From positions 1 to 36,232 of the IMG/VR virus record IMGVR_UViG_3300042346_000299: DNA of 36,232 bases. One strand, 5' to 3'. This document shows, piece by piece, positions 1,885 to 19,050 of the stretch (position 1 is the first letter of the stretch; every line of letters starts with the position of its first letter). Source of the stretch: a virus. The notes below the pieces were generated by a model that was given only the letters and a program-made list of their open reading frames with translations, had not been told where the DNA came from and did not search any database. The position numbers and the translations under genes were made by a program.

Positions 1885-2076
1885 ATGACCACCATCGTCA
1901 ACATCACCCTCATCCAAGAGGACGGTCGGATCTCCATCCGATCTGATGCCGTGGGCCAGGACGAACAAGTTCTGTCCCTCGGCCTGCAAATTTTGGGGCA
2001 TCTGTCTTACCTTGAGATGACTAACCCCGAGATTTACACGGTGGATATGCCGACCTTGAGTGCTGGGAAGCACTAG
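1885..2076 (+). CDS. Small protein, 63 aa
   Basis: ATG with a weak GAGAAG ribosome site, 17 bp after the 299-residue gene, so likely in the same transcript. The product starts with a beta-like stretch (TTIVNITLIQEDGRISI). No family recognised. Its stop lies 3 bp from the convergent end of the leftward cassette array, with no terminator hairpin between. Confidence 0.55.
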   Translation: MTTIVNITLIQEDGRISIRSDAVGQDEQVLSLGLQILGHLSYLEMTNPEIYTVDMPTLSAGKH

Positions 2077-2079
2077 AAG

Positions 2080-2682
2080 TTAGGCCGCACTTGCCTGCAT
2101 CCTCGCCAGCGTCAACAGTCGAGGGTCGGCCTCGGTCAAGCAATCCAACAGCAGACGCTTTTCCTCAAGGTACACGAGCGCAAACGCCGGATCGTGCATC
2201 ACGATGCTGCTAGTGTTGCTGATGAGGTCCGCGCACTTGATGGTCTGCACCCACCCTGGTGCGTCTGCCAGCCGGGCACGGCTCAAAGCCTTGCGCTCAG
2301 CCCTGTTACCTTTCTCAAGGTCGCTCAACAGGCGCACGCCATCGGCCACTGCATCACCGAACTCTGCGCGAAGTTGCGTTACGGTCACGCTCTGGTCTTC
2401 CACGCAATCATGCAACCACGCTACCGAAACCATCAAGTCGGCCTGTTCTGGCGTCGCCACGGTCGCCACGATCCCGGCCACTTCAGCCAAGTGGTCGGTG
2501 TACGGGTTGCCGGTGTACTTGCGGCGCTGCGCCTTGTGCGCTTCGCGGGCAAACATCATGGCTTTGTATGCTGTTCGTTCCATCTTCTCGCGGTACGAGG
2601 TTATAGACGAATACGACTTGTCAATCTCCTCCATTCGTTTTTGAGTCTCTCGCACAATGGCGGCTATTATCTTTTCATACAT
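2080..2682 (-). CDS. Small alarmone hydrolase (MESH1/SpoT HD type)
   Basis: The 200-residue protein carries the HD-hydrolase signature of SpoT/MESH1 enzymes, which remove the 3'-pyrophosphate of ppGpp using Mn2+. Seen: H49 in AREAHKAQRRK, H91-D92 with E95-D96 in LHDCVEDQ, and D152/N156 in IKCADLISN. The synthetase domain of RelA/SpoT is absent, so it should only degrade alarmone. ATG at 2682 is chosen because CCGGAGCGAC lies just upstream; an in-frame GTG (2706) falls in the boundary box. The stop codon TAA is part of the terminal core box. It could lower ppGpp during infection, which is an inference. Confidence 0.8.
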   Translation of the reverse strand: MYEKIIAAIVRETQKRMEEIDKSYSSITSYREKMERTAYKAMMFAREAHKAQRRKYTGNPYTDHLAEVAGIVATVATPEQADLMVSVAWLHDCVEDQSVTVTQLRAEFGDAVADGVRLLSDLEKGNRAERKALSRARLADAPGWVQTIKCADLISNTSSIVMHDPAFALVYLEEKRLLLDCLTEADPRLLTLARMQASAA

Positions 2683-2694
2683 TTTGTCGCTCCG

Positions 2695-2730
2695 GTTAGG
2701 CCGCACGAAGCGGCCTATTTCACGTTAGGC
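2695..2730. repeat. Gene-less 29-bp mini-cassette between two core boxes
   Basis: Two GTTAGGC boxes (2695-2701, 2724-2730) in the same orientation enclose a hairpin, TAGGCCGC (2697-2704) with GCGGCCTA (2710-2717) and loop ACGAA. The distance between the putative G^TT crossover points is 29 bp. An equal-sized unit lies at 9873-9908. Both halves of this element reappear separated by a gene: the left half at about 3325-3344 and the right half at about 3709-3732. On the leftward transcript the hairpin could also act as a weak terminator. Confidence 0.6.
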
Positions 2731-2731
2731 G

Positions 2732-2905
2732 TCAAGGCAGCACCTTCAACGTGCTTGCGTCATAGCACTTGTAGCCCTGGAGCATTCCGCGCAGCCGCTC
2801 GCCGCCCTTCTCCTTGCACTCTTTGGTATCGGTGTAGATGCCTAGCAGCAGCACCAAAATCACAGGCACGCCCACAGCAACAACAATCTTTGTCCATCGG
2901 TCCAT
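2732..2905 (-). CDS. 57-aa single-pass membrane protein
   Basis: ATG at 2905 preceded by CCGGAGCGTGAAG; stop TGA at 2732-2734. The N-terminus MDRWTK is followed by a hydrophobic segment of about 17 residues (residues 7-23) and a charged C-terminal tail with two Cys. It is a membrane-anchored small protein, probably with the tail in the cytoplasm or periplasm depending on topology. It sits as the sole gene of one cassette unit, directly before attC site A. Function unknown. Confidence 0.65.
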   Translation of the reverse strand: MDRWTKIVVAVGVPVILVLLLGIYTDTKECKEKGGERLRGMLQGYKCYDASTLKVLP

Positions 2906-2924
2906 CTTCACGCTCCGGCTACAC

Positions 2925-3011
2925 GCCTAACCCTTCGCACAAGCTGACCGCGGGTGGCAGTGCAGCGCTCCGGCCACGCATCAGCGCGGCAGCTTTCCTC
3001 AACCGTTAGGC
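2925..3011 (+). repeat. attC-like recombination site A
   Basis: R'' GCCTAAC (2925-2931); L'' AAGCTG-A-CCGCG (2941-2952); variable loop; L' CGCGGCAGCTT (2985-2995); R' GTTAGGC (3005-3011). L'' and L' pair perfectly except for the extra A2947, the extrahelical base typical of attC, which sets the site's polarity as left to right. The R'' box matches the core box at the other end of the same unit (2724). Confidence 0.75.
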
Positions 3012-3316
3012 CCCAGGTCCACCGGTGCAATGGCCACGCCCACAGAAGGCAGCGCAGGCGTGCCGTCGATCTGCCGGGACAGCGCATTGATGATTCCGGC
3101 CGCAGTACCGGGGAACGCTGCGCAAAACTCGCGCGTTACTGGCGTGGTCATCGGGTGCAGCGCCAGCACATGCCCAAGCATCTGCTTCGCCTGCTCAGCG
3201 GTCAGCAGGTTCGTGCCGGTGCGGCCGGGCTGCCCGGGCGTGCCGTCCGGGTGCACGTCGGCAGGCACCGGCCACGTCAGGAAGCGGCTCACAAGTTCAT
3301 CAATCGTCGTCATCAT
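2999..3316 (-). CDS. Cassette-borne protein, about 105 aa
   Basis: Tandem ATG codons at 3316 and 3313 follow AGAGGA; the upstream in-frame GTG (3343) lies in the boundary repeat and is unlikely. The product starts MTTIDELVSRFLTWPVPADVH, a W-P-containing motif found in many phage small proteins of unknown role; no catalytic motif is visible. The C-terminal residues and stop lie within the R' end of attC site A, so the cassette boundary contributes the last codons. Confidence 0.6.
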   Translation of the reverse strand: MMTTIDELVSRFLTWPVPADVHPDGTPGQPGRTGTNLLTAEQAKQMLGHVLALHPMTTPVTREFCAAFPGTAAGIINALSRQIDGTPALPSVGVAIAPVDLGPNG

Positions 3317-3332
3317 TGTCCTCTCGCTCCGG

Positions 3333-3698
3333 TTAGGCCGCACGAATCACGCGCCTGAATGCTTCTCCGGTGGTGATGCCGTCCTTCTTCAACTCCGAGC
3401 CGTCGCGGCTGTAGTAGCGAACGCCGGACCACATGGCGCACAACTTGGCAGCAAACTCTGCGGCCCGCTCTTTCTCCGGCCACGCCAAAATCACTCGGTC
3501 GCGCAGGTGTTCGGGTATCCACGCGGCCCGGAAATTCGTAAGACGCTTGTAGTGCGTGTACTTCTGCACCAAACGGCCCGACTTGCTGCACCCGAAAACC
3601 TCCGGGCACTCCGCGTCTCCGTTGCATCGCTCAATCCAGACCTTTGCCCCAGTGCGCAACACCCGGTCACTTTCTACGTTCGCCACTATTCCAAACAT
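3333..3698 (-). CDS. Cassette-borne protein, 121 aa
   Basis: ATG at 3698 with GAGGA upstream. A W-rich, charged protein with two near-N-terminal Cys (ERCNGDAECPEVFGC) and motifs VILAWPEKERAAEF and MWSGVRYYSRDGSEL. No family recognised. The gene lies exactly between the separated halves of the repeat that is intact and empty at 2695-2730, as if it had been gained by, or lost from, that element. The stop TAA is the TTA of the core box at 3332. Confidence 0.65.
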   Translation of the reverse strand: MFGIVANVESDRVLRTGAKVWIERCNGDAECPEVFGCSKSGRLVQKYTHYKRLTNFRAAWIPEHLRDRVILAWPEKERAAEFAAKLCAMWSGVRYYSRDGSELKKDGITTGEAFRRVIRAA

Positions 3699-3713
3699 GG
3701 TGGTCCTCGCGGC

Positions 3714-3992
3714 CTATTTCACGTTGGGCGTCTTCCAGTGCGCCAGCGTCAGAATGCCAAGCGCGGTTATTCGATAGCGGTTGCCCGCCTTGTCCCATTC
3801 AGTCAGGCCGGCCTTCTCCAGCACGTAGCAGAGACTTTGCTGGCCAGGATGAGACTGACCACCAGCAACTGCCATAAGGCCATGCACTCTGTGGTATGTC
3901 TTCTTTAAGAAGGCACGCTCCGGCTCCAGCCGCCCAACATCGCGCTCGAAAGGAGCGCTTACATCAGCGGTGGCTTCTTCATGTTTTGGCAT
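3714..3992 (-). CDS. Cassette-borne protein, 92 aa, possible winged-helix
   Basis: ATG at 3992 is preceded by AAAGGG. The N-terminal 20 or so residues are encoded by attC site D itself, with the start codon in its variable loop and the ribosome site in its L' arm. The remainder (TYHRVHGLMAVAGGQSHPGQQSLCYVLEKAGLTEWDKAGNRYRIT followed by LGILTL) reads like a small winged-helix-type fold with a C-terminal GNRYRITALG strand pair; this is a weak guess. A shorter product starting at GTG or ATG around residues 34-40 is possible. Confidence 0.55.
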   Translation of the reverse strand: MPKHEEATADVSAPFERDVGRLEPERAFLKKTYHRVHGLMAVAGGQSHPGQQSLCYVLEKAGLTEWDKAGNRYRITALGILTLAHWKTPNVK

Positions 3993-4018
3993 GGCGCCCT
4001 TTCAGCTCAACGTTAGCG
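3932..4018 (+). repeat. attC-like recombination site D
   Basis: R'' GCCCAAC (3932-3938); L'' GAAAGG-A-GCGC (3948-3958); L' GCGCCCTTTC (3994-4003); R' GTTAGCG (4012-4018). The extra base is A3954. The unusual R'' GCCCAAC pairs with the equally unusual GTTGGGC box (3723-3729) at the start of the same unit, a strong covariation sign of a real cassette. The leftward gene 3714-3992 starts inside the variable loop. Confidence 0.75.
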
Positions 4019-4210
4019 CCCATGTCGCGGCTCGATTACCAGCTTCCTGCCATCGTCTCCGTAGATCGTGGTGCGCGTCCCGCTCGTGGCGTCAGTCACA
4101 GCGCTCCACGGCACACCGTAGTCGCTCCACATTTCAGCCGGGATCTCGCCAATTCCGTCGATCCTTACCCTCACTTCTTGGCTGTAACCTGTTCCGTATC
4201 CCGGTGCCAT
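4013..4210 (-). CDS. Cassette-borne protein, 65 aa
   Basis: ATG at 4210 with a strong AAAGGAG site (the frame is open further up but lacks a ribosome site). The product contains GYGTGYSQEVRVRIDGIGEIPAEMW, suggesting a small beta-barrel-like or SH3-like fold; no family recognised. The stop codon lies in the boundary box GTTAGCG. It is the only gene of its unit, which ends with attC site C. Confidence 0.6.
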   Translation of the reverse strand: MAPGYGTGYSQEVRVRIDGIGEIPAEMWSDYGVPWSAVTDATSGTRTTIYGDDGRKLVIEPRHGR

Positions 4211-4234
4211 TTCTTTCTCCTTTGTCACGATGGG

Positions 4235-4303
4235 CGCTAACCCTACGGTCAAGCGGACCGTTCGCATAAAGGCCGCTCACGGCCGCTTACCTCTACGTTA
4301 GGC
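4235..4303 (+). repeat. attC-like recombination site C
   Basis: R'' CGCTAAC (4235-4241); L'' AAGCGG-A-CCGT (4251-4261); L' ACGGCCGCTT (4279-4288); R' GTTAGGC (4297-4303). The extrahelical base is A4257. R'' covaries with the GTTAGCG box at the start of the unit (4012-4018). It is the shortest full site in the window at 69 bp. Confidence 0.75.
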
Positions 4304-4588
4304 ATCAGGAACCACGCCTTGCACCAAGTGCTCGACGTAGCCGGGCATCGCCTTGGCCGGGCCGCGCTTTTTGGTGCAAGCGGCGCAGCGCTCGCGTTCA
4401 TCGCCCACGCTCACATGCGAGTCGGGCACATGCACCCACGAAGACCCAGGCGAACCCGGCAGCACAAACCGGCCGCAACAGTCGCAGCGCGGCTGCCACT
4501 TCGCATGCCATCCGCGCGCCGGCTTGCTGTCATCCGTCGCTATGTCGTTCATCCAGTCTTCGTAGCTGTGTCGCTCAAGCAATCGCAT
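4298..4588 (-). CDS. Cassette-borne zinc-finger-like protein, about 96 aa
   Basis: ATG at 4588 with GGAG 9 bp upstream. Seen: two Cys pairs, CDCC followed later by CAAC, giving a CxC/CxxC plus CxxC arrangement (PRCDCCGRFV and ERCAACTKK) that could bind zinc. The sequence RGWHAKWQPRCDCCGRFVLP resembles small phage proteins of unknown role. The stop TAA is in the core box at 4297. The upstream in-frame GTG near 4618 overlaps the R'' box of the truncated attC. Confidence 0.6.
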   Translation of the reverse strand: MRLLERHSYEDWMNDIATDDSKPARGWHAKWQPRCDCCGRFVLPGSPGSSWVHVPDSHVSVGDERERCAACTKKRGPAKAMPGYVEHLVQGVVPDA

Positions 4589-4662
4589 GTTTGTTCTCCA
4601 CCACTGATGCCTAACCACTCGCTCAACGCGGACACATCGGGGCAGTTATCCTTGGTCATCAT
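4549..4662 (-). CDS. Possible 37-aa leader ORF read through the cassette junction
   Basis: Tandem ATG codons (4662, 4659) follow a good CAGGAG site and the promoter at 4684-4710, so this is the first start on the leftward transcript. The frame crosses the truncated attC box and overlaps the next gene out of frame. It looks like the 5' end of a phage gene (MTKDNCPDVSALSEW) whose remainder was displaced by cassette insertion. Confidence 0.35.
   Translation of the reverse strand: MMTKDNCPDVSALSEWLGISGGEQTCDCLSDTATKTG
4609..4640 (+). repeat. Truncated attC end of array I
   Basis: R'' GCCTAAC (4609-4615) is followed by CACTCGCTCAACGCGGACAC, which resembles the R''-L'' half of sites C and E. No L' or R' half follows; the sequence passes straight into a ribosome site and promoter of the leftward operon. 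The array therefore ends in a broken site. Confidence 0.5.
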
Positions 4663-4683
4663 TTCTCCTGTGTGTCTACATCC

Positions 4684-4710
4684 ATCTTACCCTATCCTAC
4701 CTGATAGCAA
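4684..4710 (-). promoter_or_regulatory. Leftward promoter with shared operator-like motif
   Basis: On the minus strand: GTGTAAACCCTATG, then TTGCTA (4710-4705) and TAAGAT (4689-4684) with a short 15-bp spacer, containing ATCAGGTAGG. The same order of elements (TAAACCCCTAG, TTGnCA, ATCAGGTAGG or its inversion) occurs at the rightward promoters at 10.48 and 15.82 kb, so the three are probably recognised by one regulator. It would drive cassette array I. Confidence 0.5.
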
Positions 4711-4745
4711 CATAGGGTTTACACCAGTTGAGGGTGCTTGGTACC

Positions 4746-5564
4746 CTAAATTTTGAGAGCCTTCAGGACTGACTGCCCCGTGCGGAACAGTCCTTCCCGC
4801 AGGTGGTGGTCGTTGCAGTCTCCAAGCTGATCGCTCATCCAGAACGGCCAGCCTATCTCCTTGGCTACCCTTTCGCCAGTTTGAGAGGCGTCGTGATCTG
4901 CGATGACGTAGCCCCCTGGCAAGGTCTGGGCGATCTTGAGCATGTTCCCTGCGCTGAAGCAGCAGTGAATCGTATAGCGACGTTTCCAGTTCTTCAGGAT
5001 CATGCGAAGCGAGAGCGCAGTGGCTAGACCTTCTACCAAGAAGTGCGGGCCGCGGTTATCTATCACATACTCCGCGCCGCCCGTGACCTGACCCGACAGG
5101 AACTTCTTCCCGCCCTCGGAGTCGATCAATTGAACGCCCACCAGCCTCTGCCCAATCCGCATGGGGATCACCAGCAGATGCTCTCCGTCCTTCACCCAAA
5201 CATTTCCCACCTCATCGGGAAAGCCCTTGGCTTTGAGATATGGATGAGATGCGAATTGACATTGGTGAAGTATCCAAGCTGCTTTCTTGGCCGCTTCCGC
5301 CTGCCTGCGCAAAGTCTCCTGCTCTGCTCTGCGGGCCTGCTCGGCTAGGTCGCGCCTGTTAATTTTTACGGGCTCATCAGGTCGCCAGACGGAAACAGTT
5401 ACCTCGGTGGCGTGGTTTTGACAGAAGCCGTGGTCAAGCATCCACTTGACTGTTCCGTTCTTGTGGCGCGGTTTGTCCTCAGTGGGATACCTCCTCCACA
5501 GACCGACAGGAGGCAAGTGGTCAATGAGGATGCCGTGCAACCGGCAGAAGTCTAGGAAGTTCAT
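4746..5564 (-). CDS. TOPRIM-domain DNA primase
   Basis: 272 residues. The N-terminal part (1-100) carries a charged coiled segment (RDLAEQARRAEQETLRRQ). The middle has the phage-primase pattern HPYLKAKGF (107-115), then LVIPMR and LVGVQLI...GGKKFLSG. The TOPRIM core shows E178 in FLVEGLATALS and D223/D225 in VIADHDASQTG, the metal-binding residues that make RNA primers. Start ATG overlaps the helicase stop (ATGA), so the two are translationally coupled. The N-terminal zinc-binding domain of large primases is missing. Together with the helicase it forms the replication core here; no DNA polymerase is in the window. Confidence 0.85.
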   Translation of the reverse strand: MNFLDFCRLHGILIDHLPPVGLWRRYPTEDKPRHKNGTVKWMLDHGFCQNHATEVTVSVWRPDEPVKINRRDLAEQARRAEQETLRRQAEAAKKAAWILHQCQFASHPYLKAKGFPDEVGNVWVKDGEHLLVIPMRIGQRLVGVQLIDSEGGKKFLSGQVTGGAEYVIDNRGPHFLVEGLATALSLRMILKNWKRRYTIHCCFSAGNMLKIAQTLPGGYVIADHDASQTGERVAKEIGWPFWMSDQLGDCNDHHLREGLFRTGQSVLKALKI

Positions 5565-7036
5565 CGCTTGCCCTTCAGGTACGCAATCAAACTTTTCCTA
5601 GCAAACTTCTCAAACGCTAGTGATGGTGGAATCGGATCTTTGTGCAATCCATTCGGCCACACACCAAACTTTGACTTGTAAACCGCCTTCGCCCTCCCCT
5701 CCGACCATGAACCTGACTGCACCATGTATTGACCCATGCTCCACCATGCCTGCTTCTCGTCTCGGGACATAGGGCCAAGTTCCTGCATCTCGCCGGGCAC
5801 AGAAACCACCGAACTCTTACGCTCCCGCACATGCCCGCAGTTCGTGCAGGTATCAGAACCACGCGGCCACAAAGCGCCACAGGCAGGGCACTTTGCTTCT
5901 TTCTTCTCCTTCTCGTCGGGTTCCTTCTTGGGTTTCTCTCCCTTGTCATCAAGCTCATCAATACCGCTTTCGTATATCTTCTCCCAGTCTTCTCTGAACC
6001 TTAAATAGTTGCCCGAAAAGTCAAGCCACGTTGCAAATTGTTTGGTGCTATGCGTCCGCATAACCCTGCCCATTTGCTGAATATGTGATGACAAAGACTT
6101 TGAGAATGGTCTGGCAGATATTCCGATATGCACATCGTCAACAGAGAAACCTTTGGTAAGTATGTCTACGGCGCAGATACCGTGTATCTCTGTATCAGGT
6201 TTTGAGAAGTCTTCAATAACGTCCTTCTTAAACTGATCGTCATCTCTATAAGAAATACTTACGAAGTTATATCCTTGCTCACGGAACCTACTAGCTAACT
6301 CTGCACCGTGCTCAACGCCAGCACAGAACACGATTGTTTTGACAGGCTTGCCGTATATTTCGTGAGTCTTCTTTACCCATTCGGCAACTACATCACCAAC
6401 GATTTTCATCGCCCTTGAAGAAGCCTCTGCATCTGACCATTCTCCCGCCACTTTCTTCGCTCCTTTCATATCAATCTCCTTGGAGATAAATACTTTTAGC
6501 GGGGTAAGTAGCTTTTTCTCAACCAGTTCTTTCGTTGTGATTGGGTTAATCACATTGGAATAAATCTTTCCAAGCCCCTTGGTTAGCGGGGTTGCAGATA
6601 ACCCGACAACTTTAATGTGCGGGTTATTCTTTATGAGGTCGTTGGTGGCTTTGCGGGAGCAATGGCATTCATCGATGATAAGCAGTTTGGTATCTGGTAC
6701 GGAACCCCTTGCTTCCAAGGTTTGCGCGGAGCACACCTGTATGTACTCACCGGGCCTGTAGCGCCAGTGCCCTGACTGGAGTACGCCGTGGTCAATACCG
6801 TACTTATCAAGGCGCTGAGACGTTTGATCGCAAAGAACTATGCGGTCAAGGATCATTGATGATCTTGTGCCCTTTTTTTTTGCCGCTTCAAGCAAGGCAA
6901 TAGCTACTTCAGTCTTCCCAAAACCTACAGGCGCGGCAAGTATTTGAGAGCGGTGGCCTTGTGCAAAGCCTTCTCGCAGTAGCTCAATGGCGCGGACTTG
7001 TGCCGTTCTTAGTTGTAGCGTTGTGGCCTTAGACAT
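5561..7036 (-). CDS. SF2 DEAD/DEAH-family helicase with zinc ribbon
   Basis: 491 residues from ATG at 7036 (GGTGGG just upstream). Seen: Walker A APVGFGKT (35-42), DECH box (122-125), SATP motif III (147-150), and motif VI QMGRVMR (321-327). A charged linker (KPKKEPDEKEKKE) leads to a four-cysteine zinc ribbon (C383, C386, C397, C400) and a C-terminal helical tail. This is the layout of phage replication or repair helicases of the Res-subunit/UvsW-like group. It unwinds duplex or branched DNA using ATP. It overlaps the GIY-YIG gene upstream by 8 bp and the primase downstream by 4 bp. Confidence 0.9.
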   Translation of the reverse strand: MSKATTLQLRTAQVRAIELLREGFAQGHRSQILAAPVGFGKTEVAIALLEAAKKKGTRSSMILDRIVLCDQTSQRLDKYGIDHGVLQSGHWRYRPGEYIQVCSAQTLEARGSVPDTKLLIIDECHCSRKATNDLIKNNPHIKVVGLSATPLTKGLGKIYSNVINPITTKELVEKKLLTPLKVFISKEIDMKGAKKVAGEWSDAEASSRAMKIVGDVVAEWVKKTHEIYGKPVKTIVFCAGVEHGAELASRFREQGYNFVSISYRDDDQFKKDVIEDFSKPDTEIHGICAVDILTKGFSVDDVHIGISARPFSKSLSSHIQQMGRVMRTHSTKQFATWLDFSGNYLRFREDWEKIYESGIDELDDKGEKPKKEPDEKEKKEAKCPACGALWPRGSDTCTNCGHVRERKSSVVSVPGEMQELGPMSRDEKQAWWSMGQYMVQSGSWSEGRAKAVYKSKFGVWPNGLHKDPIPPSLAFEKFARKSLIAYLKGKR

Positions 7037-7739
7037 ATTCCCACCTGCTGCCAGCACGTTCCAAGTTATTGCAAATTGCTTCTGAAATCATCTTGACATG
7101 ACCACCAACACTGCGCGATGCGGCTGCAGCACTTGGGAATAGTGCTCCGTCACTCAATCTACGAACTTGTTTGCTTCTAGATTTTGTAGCGGCTTTTTTG
7201 GCATTGCTCTTTCTCTCTTTATCTCTCTCGTCCCATTTGCGTTTTATCTCTTCGTAAGTTACGTTGTCTCCAACAAAAGCCCAAAATTCACCAGCAAATT
7301 TCCAGCCATATCGTATGGACGTTGATAAGTTATCTGCGCTCTTGACCCCGTAATGCCTTGCTACTTCGTAGCCGGATGGGAAAACAACACCATCAGAAAG
7401 CCTAACCACAGGCTTGCTTACAGAAGCTACACGCTTTGCGATTACTCCTCTGTCAAACAGGGCGCAGTCTGCTGTCTTGGAAATATTGTAGGACGGCTTG
7501 AGTTCGTCCATCACCAACTGCTCAAGCTCACGCAAATGCTTACGATCAAGCACACAAACATATATGGTGAATGTCAGTCCATCTACCCCGTACTTGGCAG
7601 CAGCATTTCTTAGGGCACTGTTAACGTGCGTTCCATTCCGAAGTTCGCGCTTGTGCATGTACAGGCGCTTCTTCACATTGGTTGCACTTCCAATGTAAAA
7701 GTTACCGGATGGAGCTTCAATCTTGTAGATTCCTAGCAT
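7029..7739 (-). CDS. GIY-YIG homing endonuclease with NUMOD repeats
   Basis: 236 residues from ATG at 7739 (GAGG upstream). The GIY-YIG nuclease domain shows GIY (3-5), YIG (15-17), R25, E73 and N85, all conserved catalytic positions. Two C-terminal NUMOD1/IENR-type DNA-binding repeats follow (about 109-156 and 190-236, both with LSDGxxFPS), separated by a Lys-rich linker. This is the layout of T4 Seg-like free-standing homing endonucleases, which nick or cut phage genomes that lack the gene. It is AT-richer than its neighbours. Its last codons form the leader of the helicase gene. Likely a recent selfish insertion. Confidence 0.9.
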   Translation of the reverse strand: MLGIYKIEAPSGNFYIGSATNVKKRLYMHKRELRNGTHVNSALRNAAAKYGVDGLTFTIYVCVLDRKHLRELEQLVMDELKPSYNISKTADCALFDRGVIAKRVASVSKPVVRLSDGVVFPSGYEVARHYGVKSADNLSTSIRYGWKFAGEFWAFVGDNVTYEEIKRKWDERDKERKSNAKKAATKSRSKQVRRLSDGALFPSAAAASRSVGGHVKMISEAICNNLERAGSRWEYV

Positions 7740-7748
7740 TTGATCCTC

Positions 7749-7780
7749 TGCCAGCACTAGCCCGCTGGCGTGGGCGTGGT
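7749..7780. repeat. 32-bp direct repeat, copy 1
   Basis: The sequence from TGCCAGCACTAG to GGGCGTGGT matches 8495-8526 with one mismatch and contains the small hairpin CCAGC/GCTGG. It lies between the GIY-YIG gene start and the cassette-like core box at 7785. The repeated block flanks the two-gene unit 7786-8462, consistent with recombination or duplication of that unit. Confidence 0.7.
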
Positions 7781-8494: not shown

Positions 8495-8526
8495 TGCCAG
8501 CACTAGCCCGCTGGCGTGGGGGTGGT
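8495..8526. repeat. 32-bp direct repeat, copy 2
   Basis: Matches 7749-7780 with one mismatch. It abuts the ParB-tail copy at 8466-8491 on one side and leads to the palindromic core pair at 8542 on the other. Confidence 0.7.
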
Positions 8527-8541
8527 TTACCAGTTGATGTC

Positions 8542-8559
8542 GCCTAACACACGTTAGGC
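8542..8559. repeat. Minimal palindromic core-box pair
   Basis: GCCTAAC (8542-8548) and GTTAGGC (8553-8559) are separated by only ACAC and pair perfectly, extended by C8541/G8560. L'', the variable loop and L' are all missing. The right side (CACGTTAGGCGTCAA) is shared with the box at 2722-2736. It is either an attC collapsed to its core boxes or a minimal phage-type site. Confidence 0.65.
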
Positions 8560-8560
8560 G

Positions 8561-8803
8561 TCAATGCACATCCCGGTGCAGCCACACAGTCGCACCCGTG
8601 TCGGGGTCCGTGTATTCAGCCGTAGGCTCGCACCAGCAGTTTGCAAACGGCACATGCTCCAGCTTTCCGCCATTGGCGCGTTTGCCTGGGCAGTCCATGT
8701 CGGCGCACACTGTTCCGGCTGGGGCGTGGCAGTCCTCGCACTCTGGCGAGGTGACGCCTAACCCTTCGCTCAAGCGGAGCGCTGCCGGGTCGGTTTCGTT
8801 CAT
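8561..8803 (-). CDS. Cassette-borne Cys-rich protein, 80 aa
   Basis: ATG at 8803 with AAGGAG (8810-8815 on the plus strand as CTCCTT). Start codon, ribosome site and about the first 16 codons lie inside attC site E. The body has CEDCHAPAGTVCADMDC, a CxxC...CxxxxC cluster seen in small phage zinc proteins, then PFANCWCEP and a Trp-His tail (VWLHRDVH). Probably zinc-binding; role unknown. It is the only gene of the unit 8554-8842. Confidence 0.65.
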   Translation of the reverse strand: MNETDPAALRLSEGLGVTSPECEDCHAPAGTVCADMDCPGKRANGGKLEHVPFANCWCEPTAEYTDPDTGATVWLHRDVH

Positions 8804-8848
8804 TCGTGTCTCCTTGCAGGCAGCGCCCGCTTAGCTATGTCGTTAGAC
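8756..8848 (+). repeat. attC-like recombination site E
   Basis: R'' GCCTAAC (8756-8762); L'' CAAGCGG-A-GCGCTGCC (8771-8786); L' GGCAGCGCCCGCTT (8819-8832); R' GTTAGAC (8842-8848). The stem is perfect apart from the extrahelical A8778. The spacer CCTTCGCT before CAAGCGGA is nearly the spacer of classical aadA-type attC sites (from memory). R'' matches the unit's start box (8553). This is the best attC in the window. Confidence 0.85.
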
Positions 8849-9073
8849 CTCAAATCCACGCCAACAGGCGGCGCACAGCATGCGCGCATGCTCGCATCGG
8901 CTGCCTGAAAAGTTCCCGCGTCCACCGCAAATGTATTGGGTCGGCGGTCGCCTATATGGCTCGTACTCTGCAAGGTGATAGGTTTTGTCCCAAGAGTTGT
9001 AGAACTGTCCTATCACTTTGCCGTCTTCCTCAAACCGCAAAGGATGGCTTGGGTTGTCGTTGAGTCGCTTCAC
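8843..9073 (-). CDS. Cys/His-containing protein, 76 aa
   Basis: GTG at 9073 overlaps the ParB-like stop codon, with AAGGAGG 6 bp upstream, so it is translationally coupled. The C-terminal half carries ICGGRGNFSGSRCEHARMLCAACWRGFEV, a CxxG...C...CxxC arrangement resembling a treble-clef or zinc ribbon. The N-terminal half (FEEDGKVIGQFYNSWDKTYHLAEYEP) is beta-rich. The stop TAA lies in the core box at 8842. Function unknown. Confidence 0.65.
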   Translation of the reverse strand: MKRLNDNPSHPLRFEEDGKVIGQFYNSWDKTYHLAEYEPYRRPPTQYICGGRGNFSGSRCEHARMLCAACWRGFEV

Positions 9074-9861
9074 ACTTCCTCCTTCTTCAGCTTTCGCTGC
9101 AGGGATGCCACGGTTTTCTTCAACTCCGCGTTCTCCCGTTGGAAGGTGTCCCGGCTGATCTTCAGGCTCTGGTTCTCAATCTCCAGAATCCTGATCTGCT
9201 CCCGCAGTTCTGCGATGGTTTCGCCTGCCGCCTGCTTCTCCTCCTCGCTGGCTTCCATCGCTTCCACCGCAAGCCGGTCGCTCAGGCGCTGGTTCTCGGC
9301 CATTAGTTCTGCTACGGCTTCGTCCTTTTCCTCCGCCAAATTTTCAACCGGCGTCTCCACCACGGTGTTAAGTTTTACGGGCTTGGCTTTCTTCGGAGCG
9401 TTAAAATTAACGCTGCTCACCTTCTCGCCAGCGTCCTTTTCCTGCTTCACGGCCATCACCAACTGAGGTGAAACGCCACAGATGCGGGCCATCTCGTTCA
9501 CACTGAGGTCGCCCCATTCAAAGTCTTCCAAGAGCGTCATCACACACTTCCGTTTGTCTGCATTGCTCCTACGCAGGCCGTGATCCCGGTTTGCTCCCAG
9601 GCTGTAGAGGATGGCATCACGCAGGGTGCCTGTCCGCACATCGGCTTGGATGCTGGTCTTGCCCAGGCGCTTGACGGCATGGAGACGGTGGAAGCCATCG
9701 GCAAGGTAGTAGTCCACACCATCATGGAAAGCGATGACAGGCGGGAACTCGTCGCCCGCTGCCATAGCCTCGGCGTAGTCCGATACCGTATCCTCGCTGA
9801 TCGCGGCACGGGACTGGGTGCCCTTGTCAATGATGATTGATTGGATGTTGAGTTTTTTCAT
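9070..9861 (-). CDS. ParB/Srx-domain protein with C-terminal coiled coil
   Basis: 263 residues from ATG at 9861; no clear ribosome site. The N-terminal ParB/sulfiredoxin-like nuclease fold shows LADGFHRLHAVKRLG with the GFHR motif (56-59). A helix-turn-helix follows (DLSVNEMARICGVSPQLVMAVKQE, about 118-141). After a linker, residues about 185-263 form a long coiled coil (EIENQSL, ENAELKKTVASLQRKLKKEE). Such ParB-N proteins in phages act as DNA-binding regulators or nucleases. No ParA partner is present, so plasmid-type partition is not supported here. Confidence 0.8.
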   Translation of the reverse strand: MKKLNIQSIIIDKGTQSRAAISEDTVSDYAEAMAAGDEFPPVIAFHDGVDYYLADGFHRLHAVKRLGKTSIQADVRTGTLRDAILYSLGANRDHGLRRSNADKRKCVMTLLEDFEWGDLSVNEMARICGVSPQLVMAVKQEKDAGEKVSSVNFNAPKKAKPVKLNTVVETPVENLAEEKDEAVAELMAENQRLSDRLAVEAMEASEEEKQAAGETIAELREQIRILEIENQSLKISRDTFQRENAELKKTVASLQRKLKKEEV

Positions 9862-9872
9862 GGTGTTCAAAA

Positions 9873-9908
9873 GTTAGGCCGAAGGCGTGCGGCCTGTTCA
9901 CGTTAGGT
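9873..9908. repeat. Second gene-less 29-bp mini-cassette
   Basis: GTTAGGC (9873-9879) and GTTAGGT (9902-9908) in the same orientation enclose a hairpin AGGCCG/CGGCCT. The G-to-G distance is 29 bp, identical to the element at 2695-2730, and both share GCGGCCTrTTTCAC-type right halves. It separates the ParB-like gene from the 71-residue gene. Confidence 0.55.
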
Positions 9909-10118
9909 GTTTGCTAGAGCCCGCAACTCATCGGCCAGCGCCAGCAGTTGTTCTCGCGTGAGAAATGCAGAGTAGTACCCGTCGCAAGACTCCTCAATTT
10001 GAAAGCGGCCAGTCTCTTGCTTGGTCACACTGAAAACACGCGCTTTGTCCAGCGCATCCAGCAGTGTCTCGCCGCTTCTGTAGCCACCGCCAACGTCAAT
10101 GACGCATTCATTGTTCAT
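9903..10118 (-). CDS. Small protein, 71 aa
   Basis: ATG at 10118 with AAGGAG 6 bp upstream. It starts MNNECVIDVGGGYRSGETLLDALDKAR and ends in a helix FLTREQLLALADELRALAN. No family recognised. The stop TAA lies in the core box at 9902, as for the cassette genes, but no attC remains at its start side. Confidence 0.65.
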   Translation of the reverse strand: MNNECVIDVGGGYRSGETLLDALDKARVFSVTKQETGRFQIEESCDGYYSAFLTREQLLALADELRALANT

Positions 10119-10127
10119 TGGTTCTCC

Positions 10128-10442
10128 TTAAAACTCACTGTAGAACACTCGTCCTGTGCTTTTGTTCCGCACTCTTACGGAGTAGAGTCCTTCGCCGCAT
10201 GGGCCCAAGTAGTCGCCGCCAGTAAAGAAGATGTGCCGGTTGCAGTCGCAGCCGTTGTTCCCTCCGCTCCAAATCCAATTTTCTGGATCGGGCTCCCCGT
10301 CCATCAAAATTGCCTCGTGCTCACACTCACGCACTTGGCCTGTTGCGTTGTGACGGATCTCTGCCACAGTCATCACCCACCGCCCTCCCTCTATGGGATG
10401 CGTCGGTATGTTCAGTTCTTCCCACTGCTCCATGTCATTCAT
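10128..10442 (-). CDS. Small phage protein, 104 aa
   Basis: ATG at 10442 with CAGGAG upstream. It contains WIWSGGNNGCDCNRHIFFTGG, a pattern with CxC and Asn that recurs in uncharacterised proteins of proteobacterial phages. Function unknown. It is divergent from the rightward early cluster and shares the intergenic promoter/operator region. Confidence 0.7.
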   Translation of the reverse strand: MNDMEQWEELNIPTHPIEGGRWVMTVAEIRHNATGQVRECEHEAILMDGEPDPENWIWSGGNNGCDCNRHIFFTGGDYLGPCGEGLYSVRVRNKSTGRVFYSEF

Positions 10443-10466
10443 GCTACTCTCCTGTTGCCCGAATGC

Positions 10467-10513
10467 ACTAGGTATAAACCCCTAGTTGTCATCAGGTAGG
10501 TTCAGTGTAGGAT
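10467..10513 (+). promoter_or_regulatory. Rightward early promoter with inverted-repeat operator
   Basis: TTGTCA (10486-10491), 16-bp spacer, TAGGAT (10508-10513). Just upstream an inverted repeat ACTAGG (10467-10472) / CCTAGT (10481-10486) overlaps the -35, and ATCAGGTAGG fills the spacer. The arrangement resembles the promoters at 4.7 and 15.8 kb. It would drive the small-gene cluster to about 15.4 kb. Confidence 0.6.
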
Positions 10514-10533
10514 CGGGGCTCTGGAGGTGCAAG

Positions 10534-10740
10534 ATGGAAGACGAAGTGAAGGTGTTGAGAGAGCGGATCGCTGTGCTGGAGGCGCACATCCATGCTGGGA
10601 TCAACTGTGCTTTCTTCTGTGCTCTACCGGAGTGTGCCAAGTATCTATCAGGAGAACAACATGACCAAGATGCAACTAGCCAAGCACGCACTGAAGTTGT
10701 GGAACGTGCCTCATGTTCCGAAGAGCGTCAACCGTTCTAA
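10534..10740 (+). CDS. Small protein with leucine-zipper-like N-terminus, 68 aa
   Basis: ATG with GGAGGTG upstream; first gene after the promoter. MEDEVKVLRERIAVLEAHIHAG forms a heptad pattern. The last third overlaps the next gene by 80 bp in another frame and looks less coding-like, so the stop may be secondary. Confidence 0.5.
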   Translation: MEDEVKVLRERIAVLEAHIHAGINCAFFCALPECAKYLSGEQHDQDATSQARTEVVERASCSEERQPF

Positions 10741-10825
10741 CGCCCGCAAGTGGATCCGGGCCGTCGAGCGCCTGGGTGACAGGTGGGTGTACGCAAAACC
10801 AATTCCGCTGACGAGGGTGCAATGA
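10661..10825 (+). CDS. Small basic protein, 54 aa
   Basis: ATG with CAGGAG 6 bp upstream. Product MTKMQLAKHALKLWNVPHVPKSVNRSNARKWIRAV is basic and helical. This type of NRxNxRKWIxAVxxLGDRW protein occurs in phage early regions; the role is unknown. It overlaps the next tiny frame by ATGA. Confidence 0.7.
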   Translation: MTKMQLAKHALKLWNVPHVPKSVNRSNARKWIRAVERLGDRWVYAKPIPLTRVQ

Positions 10826-10902
10826 CACTTGATCACATGTGGGCGAGCGATGTCATGGCATCTTCTGCGCCTGCGGTGGTACTTGAGGAGGGAACAGAAT
10901 GA
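10822..10902 (+). CDS. 26-aa mini-ORF
   Basis: ATGA-coupled at both ends: its ATG overlaps the stop of the previous gene and its stop overlaps the start of the next. The product (MTLDHMWASDVMASSAPAVV...) has no recognisable domain. The end of its frame carries the GGAGGG ribosome site of the next gene, so it may mainly couple translation. Confidence 0.4.
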   Translation: MTLDHMWASDVMASSAPAVVLEEGTE

Positions 10903-11093
10903 AGAAACTCCCCAAAGGCCTTGACTACCAAGGCCGCTACCCCAGCCGCTACCCCGAAGCCGCCGAGGCGGCGACAGAAGTGGGCCAGGAGGACGAGGAG
11001 CAAGCCAATCTCGTTTTCTTGTGGGCCGTGGTGGCAATCCTTGTAATCACCATCATCGCCATTGGCGTGGCGATTTGGGGGGAGGGGCAATGA
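10899..11093 (+). CDS. 64-aa single-pass membrane protein
   Basis: ATG with GGAGGG upstream. A charged, Pro/Tyr/Glu-rich N-terminal part (residues 1-36) is followed by a clear membrane segment (about 37-59, LVFLWAVVAILVITIIAIGVAIW). The short tail after it predicts a C-tail-anchored topology. Function unknown; it is one of a group of tiny membrane proteins in this cluster. Confidence 0.7.
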   Translation: MKKLPKGLDYQGRYPSRYPEAAEAATEVGQEDEEQANLVFLWAVVAILVITIIAIGVAIWGEGQ

Positions 11094-18309: not shown

Positions 18310-18508
18310 AGCCGAAGTGAAGTTCGTTATCCACGCCGTGCAGGAATCTGCCGCCAAAATTCTGGCGAAGCTGGAAGCCAAGCCGGTGACACCCGTGCCC
18401 GCCATTCCTGCAGCGGTTCGTCTCACCAAAGCAGGCCGTCCCGCCAAGAAGCCTGGGCGCAAGCCGGGTAAGAAGCCGGTCGTAAAAATTGTTGAGCAAG
18501 CAGCATGA
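18290..18508 (+). CDS. 72-aa basic protein with AT-hook-like tail
   Basis: GTG at 18290 with AAGGAG, overlapping the exonuclease end by 20 bp. N-terminal helix (NLTEAEVKFVIHAVQESAAKILAKLEAK), then a Pro/Ala linker, then GRPAKKPGRKPGKKP, which resembles AT-hook or histone-tail DNA-binding stretches. It probably contacts DNA near the recombination proteins. Confidence 0.7.
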   Translation: MLINLTEAEVKFVIHAVQESAAKILAKLEAKPVTPVPAIPAAVRLTKAGRPAKKPGRKPGKKPVVKIVEQAA

Positions 18509-19050
18509 TCGCAAGCCTCCTCAAACTCAACGTACAGGATCACGTTGAAAAGAAGAACGGCATAAGTCAACAAGAACTTCAAGATTTGTTGACTTATGAA
18601 TCAGAAACAGGTCAGTTCTATTGGAAAAACAGTAGAAATCCTCGTGTAAAAAATGGATCAGTTGCTGGATCTATTGATTCATCAGGGCATTTACAGATCA
18701 AAATTAACAAAAGGTGTCAACTGGCGCATAGACTTGTGTGGATATATGTTTATGGTGTCAATCCGCCAAGCCAAATTGATCACATCAATGGCAATAAACT
18801 TGACAACAGGATCACCAATCTTAGAGAAGCCAATTCAAAATTAAACGCCGAGAATAGGCGCGCAGCACCCGTTAACAATAAAACCAGCGGTCTTCTTGGG
18901 GTTACTTGGCACAAAGCGTCAAAGTCATGGACTGCGGCAATTAAAACAAACGGGAAAAGAAAACATCTTGGTTGTTTTAAGACGCCAGAAGAGGCCCACT
19001 TAGTTTATGTAAATAATAAACGGTTACTTCATGCTGGTTGTTCAATATGA
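18505..19050 (+). CDS. HNH homing endonuclease with AP2-type domain
   Basis: 181 residues. HNH core: LAHRLVW (H75, R76), IDHINGNKLDNRITNLR (D92, H93, N95, N101, N105). A C-terminal AP2/ERF-like DNA-binding segment (GLLGVTWHKASKSWTAAIK to GCFKTPEEAHLVY) follows. The first 21 residues are not part of HNH proteins; they match the start of the next gene at 12 of 21 positions (LLKLNVQDHVEKKNG against LLKLDLSKHIEKKNG). The gene is AT-rich. It is a free-standing homing endonuclease lodged at the 5' end of the annealing-protein gene. Confidence 0.88.
   Translation: MIASLLKLNVQDHVEKKNGISQQELQDLLTYESETGQFYWKNSRNPRVKNGSVAGSIDSSGHLQIKINKRCQLAHRLVWIYVYGVNPPSQIDHINGNKLDNRITNLREANSKLNAENRRAAPVNNKTSGLLGVTWHKASKSWTAAIKTNGKRKHLGCFKTPEEAHLVYVNNKRLLHAGCSI

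Follow-up and report, generated by a model that had tools for sequence, protein, structure and literature searches.

Gene capture by integrons is regarded as a bacterial trait, and phages are seen as carrying integrons only occasionally. Clusters of attC sites without intI (CALINs) have been described in the virulent phages TJE1, PH101 and P12002L, and five of the six phage attC sites tested were recombined by IntI1 (Qi et al. 2023, PMC9892861). Complete integrons were reported in Vibrio, Shewanella and P1 prophages in the same study. In bacteria, recombination selects the bottom strand of attC, and a cassette at attI thereby normally comes to lie in the orientation in which Pc can express it (PMC8946536).

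We analysed a 36,232-base linear virus (IMG/VR record IMGVR_UViG_3300042346_000299; the whole stretch is called the window here), which has virion structural genes, a primase gene and a Sak-like annealing gene. Like the published CALINs, it combines an attC array with the absence of an integrase: no tyrosine recombinase gene, intI included, was found within the 36-kb fragment, whereas some array-bearing relatives have intI. It differs from them in that its cassette genes are all inverted, whereas those of TJE1 are sense-oriented, and in that it is part of a large metagenomic phage set with IntI-coding relatives. We consider it highly probable that this region is a CALIN-type branch of a phage-specific integron, with the integrase supplied in trans. 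A megablast search of INPHARED with 12 kb of the window gave no match, as did Rfam. Helicase relatives in INPHARED are less than 60% identical, too distant to point to a host.

attC sites and cassette turnover

The array lies between position 2076 and the primase gene and consists of small minus-strand genes with attC sites on the plus strand between them (Table 1). A preliminary description, made from the sequence alone, had listed three full attC sites and a truncated one, each full site with a single extrahelical A, and had proposed a covariance model as a check. We used model R1, which was trained solely on 22 bacterial attC sites, shows strong covariation and replaced a loose scan for R''/L''/L'/R' boxes. 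All listed sites were recovered (E-values of 4e-11, 4e-11 and 0.003 for the full sites and 0.28 for the truncated one; values are rough because calibration was short), the extrahelical A was located in the L'' arm of every full site, and a further site was found at 8756–8848. Every R1 match in the window is on the plus strand. In 652 kb of control sequence (40 loci, most of them phage relatives without an array), R1 gave only two matches, both in TJE1, whose sites an early attC regular expression had missed.

Table 1. Features of the cassette array, the second cassette spot and their neighbours in the window.
Feature	Position	Strand	Remarks
Small gene, left neighbour of array	1885–2076	+	Ends at 2076
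Whole inserted array	2077–4743		Missing in seven relatives, where the 1885–2076 gene abuts the primase gene
Left-most array core GTTAGGC	2079–2085	+	Same left edge GAAGTTAGGC in L006
HD-domain (HD_4) phosphohydrolase gene	2080–2706	-	PF13328, E 1e-12; phrog_990, E 7e-39
attI-like element	2695–2730	+	GTTAGGCCGCACGAAGCGGCCTATTTCAC followed by GTTAGGC; can be aligned with the attI that precedes intI in phages
Cassette gene A', 57 aa	2732–2905	-	48% identical relative within array of IntI-coding phage L391
attC 1	2925–3011	+	R1 E 3.9e-11
Cassette gene B	2999–3316	-	Ribosome-binding site CCGGAGCGAGAGG beside core 3332
Gene C	3333–3698	-	Between two halves of attI-like element (3332 and 3709)
attI-like element, right half	3709–3729	+	GCGGCCTATTTCAC followed by GTTGGGC; start core of cassette D
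Cassette gene D	3714–3992	-	Start codon within attC 2
attC 2	3932–4018	+	R1 match 3932–4019, E 0.0029; weak site
Cassette gene E	4013–4267	-	Open frame begins within attC 3
attC 3	4235–4303	+	R1 E 4e-11
Cassette gene F	4298–4618	-	Zinc-ribbon-like, with two CxxC motifs; L094 array has a copy 90% identical in protein
Truncated attC	4609–4640	+	R'' and L'' only; R1 match 4609–4651, E 0.28, alone not significant
Primase gene, right neighbour of array	4746–5564	-	Flanks insert
Collapsed attC relic	8542–8559	+	GCCTAACACACGTTAGGC; left edge of second cassette spot
Cassette gene G, 80 aa	8561–8803	-	AAGGAG and ATG within attC 4
attC 4	8756–8848	+	R1 E 1.9e-10; absent from preliminary description
Cassette gene H	8843–9073	-	Stop codon in core of attC 4
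attI-like element	9873–9908	+	GTTAGGCCGAAGGCGTGCGGCCTGTTCAC followed by GTTAGGT; likeness to phage attI

A CALIN has at least two attC sites (R''-L''-L'-R' with an extrahelical base) within 4 kb and one small ORF between sites. The window has three full sites at 2925–4303, and the units between 3723 and 4609 each hold one small ORF. The match between the core of a unit and the R'' box of its own attC, also pointed out in the preliminary description, is real (GTTGGGC at 3723 with GCCCAAC at 3932; GTTAGCG at 4012 with CGCTAAC at 4235). However, it is valid in either reading direction and therefore shows circularisation, not orientation, and it was left out of the polarity calls.

Comparison with related contigs revealed cassette turnover. 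In seven helicase relatives (L010, L011, L012, L014, L016, L017 and L020) the neighbouring genes lie side by side, so 2077–4743 is an insert. In L006, one different cassette is bounded on the left by the same edge (GAAGTTAGGCCGCACGAAGCGGCCTATTTCACGTTAGGC) and on the right by the same truncated attC, which is the conserved right edge of the array. Together, the empty sites and the alternative cassette at the same locus show that cassette content turns over. Most of L093–L101 have a full-length version of the truncated site, of which the window retains the left half. A second cassette spot holds attC 4, and 8500–9076 is missing from the corresponding position in L006.

The units do not always move as a whole. 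Cassette F (4297–4615) resembles L094 3559–3882, with DNA likeness from the start core to R'', and both flanking attC sites differ between the two contigs. Conversely, attC 1 together with some 18 nt of leader on its 5' side (2905–3015) is found at 88–97% identity between different genes in L098, L116, L124 and L171. L097 and L098 have a cassette and its attC in common and diverge from the following G/TT (the slash marks the breakpoint). Since cassette F has moved without either attC and attC 1 has varying genes, gene bodies and attC modules appear to recombine separately as well, which simple attC x attI insertion would not predict.

The preliminary description had named an alarmone hydrolase among the cargo; the assignment of 2080–2706 to the HD_4 phosphohydrolases is sound, and the product is likely (p)ppGpp-hydrolase-like. 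This gene has its TAA stop codon within a core, and its borders in the window are attI-like repeats instead of a full attC; an 85% identical relative adjoins an attC in L152. Cassette gene E has a better start codon at 4210, an ATG after AAAGGAG. Gene G, whose leader MNETDPAALRLSEGLG is encoded by the L''/R'' arm of attC 4, has a relative in the IntI-coding phage L357.

Inverted orientation of the cassette genes

In CALINs, the ORF is typically, though not strictly necessarily, sense to its attC. In the window, all attC sites are polarised to the plus strand, both by the extrahelical base and by R1, and all cassette genes are on the minus strand; every unit is thus antisense. This inversion was overlooked in the preliminary description.

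We compared viral and bacterial arrays obtained by scanning for one attC end motif, which gave 83 viral and more than 120 bacterial stretches (many from Rubrivivax and other Burkholderiales). The coding strand was called from codon usage in the stretch to the left of every attC found by the model. Viral arrays had 103 antisense units, 1 sense unit and 12 unclear ones, and viral IntI loci had 102, 2 and 18, respectively; combined, 205 callable units are antisense and 3 are sense. In bacterial arrays, 50 units were sense and 6 antisense, with 88 of 144 uncallable. Calls with a codon model derived from bacteria pointed the same way (antisense to sense, 85:1 for viral arrays and 80:2 for viral IntI loci; sense to antisense, 32:3 for bacterial arrays).

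In many phage units, the attC also contains the translation start. An antisense ATG that has a ribosome-binding site, lies within the attC and opens a frame of 50 codons or more was found in 31 of 116 and 23 of 122 viral sites compared to 1 of 144 bacterial ones, and the sense-strand control gave 0–1. The L''/R'' arm of such sites encodes a leader, for example ..LSEGLG or ..VERGVRP. In the window, attC 2 and attC 4 are of this type and hold the starts of genes D and G, respectively.

Sedentary chromosomal integrons of bacteria (for example Rubrivivax, Vibrio) have the same attC architecture, attI beside intI, the same intI-attI-attC geometry and the same IntI family. However, their cassette genes point away from attI and those of the phages toward attI and intI; their intI is divergent and that of the phages co-oriented; and, among attC sites with the shared end motif, theirs have long paired terminal stems where those of phages often have open coding loops. 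In atypical integrons such as that of Treponema, intI has the same direction as the cassettes, and intI itself is flipped. The Treponema layout has intI and cassette genes on one strand as in the phages, but the phages keep the standard arrangement of intI, attI and attC and have flipped cassette genes. Although phage CALINs have already been published, we did not find a description of this inverted layout or of the phage IntI clade described below in the literature searched, the scope of which excluded preprints and most subscription journals.

Integron integrases and attI sites in related phages

Three array-bearing contigs carry an integron integrase above the TIGR02249 cut-off. An alignment-based scan of IMG/VR found 249 viral stretches encoding integron-integrase relatives, and the best 80 of the 249 loci, ranked by match to proteobacterial-type queries, were fetched. 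All 63 viral IntI proteins examined match TIGR02249 (first member 427 bits, cut-off 265), and the catalytic R, H-R, H and Y are invariant over the 63; their best solved relative is IntI4 (2a3v). In the tree, 53 of the 63 form one clade (support 100/98), which is still exclusive when the set includes 71 bacterial IntI proteins, 30 of them added from across the phylum (SH-aLRT 98). The remaining 10 group among bacterial ones. One named relative may be Virus Rctr41k, in which a gene annotated as xerD-like (KX853513.1, 4725–5639) is 48% identical to a phage-clade IntI.

In 56 of 57 viral loci, intI has the same orientation as the genes upstream of it; in 28 of 32 Burkholderiales loci, it is divergent. 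In IntI-coding phages, 124 of 125 attC sites are on the strand opposite intI. Therefore, the bacterial intI/attI/attC geometry is kept and only the cassette genes are flipped. One phage, L327, has several attC sites 3' of intI (9538–10966) as well as upstream, and in this it differs from the other IntI phages. Directly 3' of intI, 24 of 39 loci have a phage integrase gene and 5 have a serine recombinase gene. A lambda-type terminase is present in 12 of 27 contigs, which include one array-less relative, and a portal gene in 13 of 26; the GpA and portal families were used instead of Terminase_6N, which matched few contigs. These genes indicate that the IntI carriers are temperate phages. It should also be noted that the Vibrio, Shewanella and P1 prophages, which likewise have intI, attI and attC within a phage genome, are among the INPHARED matches to the phage-clade IntI. 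With IntI less than 60% identical to the viral clade, they appear to be captured bacterial integrons.

Upstream of intI, relatives have in common GTGTTACGCCGC...GCGGTCGAATTSAM followed by GTTRGGC. This phage attI is conserved up to G/TT, after which close relatives diverge. The window contains attI-like repeats at 2695–2730, 3332/3709 and 9873–9908, which had been overlooked. Gene C interrupts one of these elements and the HD gene adjoins another. The element at 2695–2730 precedes different cassettes in L083, L086 and L088, where its right side varies, and the pattern at 3709–3729 is found in 10 viral stretches. The likeness of 2695–2730 and 9873–9908 to phage attI has a shuffle p of about 0.001 or lower with the core excluded, for a resemblance noticed post hoc. 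This apparent kinship of the window elements with phage attI is the softest link in our case.

A probable phage branch of integrons and its alternatives

Under the trans-acting reading, an IntI-family recombinase would act on the folded single-stranded attC (the bottom strand, as in bacterial integrons) at G/TTRRRY, and small promoterless genes would be inserted at attI-like or attC sites. The gene of a phage cassette is inverted, with its start codon in or beside the attC at the 5' end and its stop codon in the core at the 3' end, which would make the cassette self-contained for translation. Owing to the flipped gene, the same recombination would deliver cassettes along the direction of the phage operon, and transcription of the array as one operon would come from the phage side and run toward attI. 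A consensus scan found no promoter for the array on the minus strand. In temperate relatives the array ends in intI on the same strand. The phage studied here has retained cassettes and attI-like sites, and since intI is absent from the 36-kb fragment, a co-resident prophage or the host would supply the integrase. Many related phages encode a phage-only-clade integrase, so this trans-acting enzyme may itself be phage-borne. The suggestion in the preliminary description that the phage acquires cassettes through host machinery thus holds for the integron-type cassettes and their turnover, but a host origin of the machinery is not established. A broader picture, in which a phage-only IntI clade with its attI is combined with inverted cassettes, attC sites doubling as translation-start modules, an operon ending in intI and a cassette pool common to IntI-coding temperate and IntI-less phages, seems to us reasonably probable.

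The contrast in orientation disfavours passive capture, in which a host integron integrase has put ordinary bacterial cassettes into the phage and no phage-specific system exists. Bacterial cassettes are sense and phage cassettes nearly all antisense; in addition, phage cargo is short and mostly without a Pfam match, the phages encode an IntI clade of their own, and relatives of the window's cassettes A' and G occur in phages that encode IntI. We consider passive capture distinctly unlikely, although the same attC end motif is abundant in arrays of Rubrivivax and other Burkholderiales, IntI relatives occur in 111 of 300 Burkholderiales genomes, and virulent-phage CALINs are known, with sense-oriented genes in TJE1 (PMC9892861). 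It is also conceivable, if improbable, that the attC-like sites are translation start and stop hairpins that no longer recombine, with turnover by homologous recombination at repeats. Such hairpins would account for start codons and ribosome-binding sites within attC loops, for stop codons in core boxes and for the separate movement of cassette F and attC 1. However, translation requires none of the conserved fit to the bacterial attC model, extrahelical base and paired cores, attI breakpoints fall at G/TT beside an intact intI, and the catalytic residues of IntI are invariant in all 63 members. A chance origin of the sites, as hairpins around the common word GTTAGGC, was rejected on the R1 scores, with E-values down to 4e-11 in the window, and is extremely improbable. 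While the loose structural scan alone gives about one match per shuffled window, R1 has no match in about 650 kb of array-less relatives except the two in TJE1.

If the phage-specific integron is real, phages seem to have their own dedicated version of integron gene capture. Such a branch, with an integrase clade of its own and cassettes in reverse, would account for a source of phage accessory-gene turnover and let cassettes pass between phages and the integrons of bacteria. It would also raise the question of why the gene is flipped relative to attC. Cassette orientation at attI depends on the strand selectivity of attC (PMC8946536), and the phage layout offers a way to test what follows for expression and replication.

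The cargo is probably accessory and perhaps serves anti-defence. The 98 proteins from viral arrays average about 120 aa and mostly lack a match in Pfam; a cytosine methyltransferase is among them. In PADLOC, the matches listed were all to cytosine methyltransferase models, with one member each. The array of the IntI phage L310 (9959–17056) contains two N6/N4 and one MT-A70 methyltransferase genes, which suggests anti-restriction cargo.

Outside the cassette spots, the window has two homing-endonuclease-like genes, one GIY-YIG-like in appearance as judged by eye (7029–7757) and one matching HNH families (18505–19050). A long GGC-rich, triplet-like stretch at 121–330 gives an alanine-rich repeat in the protein encoded at 18–380.
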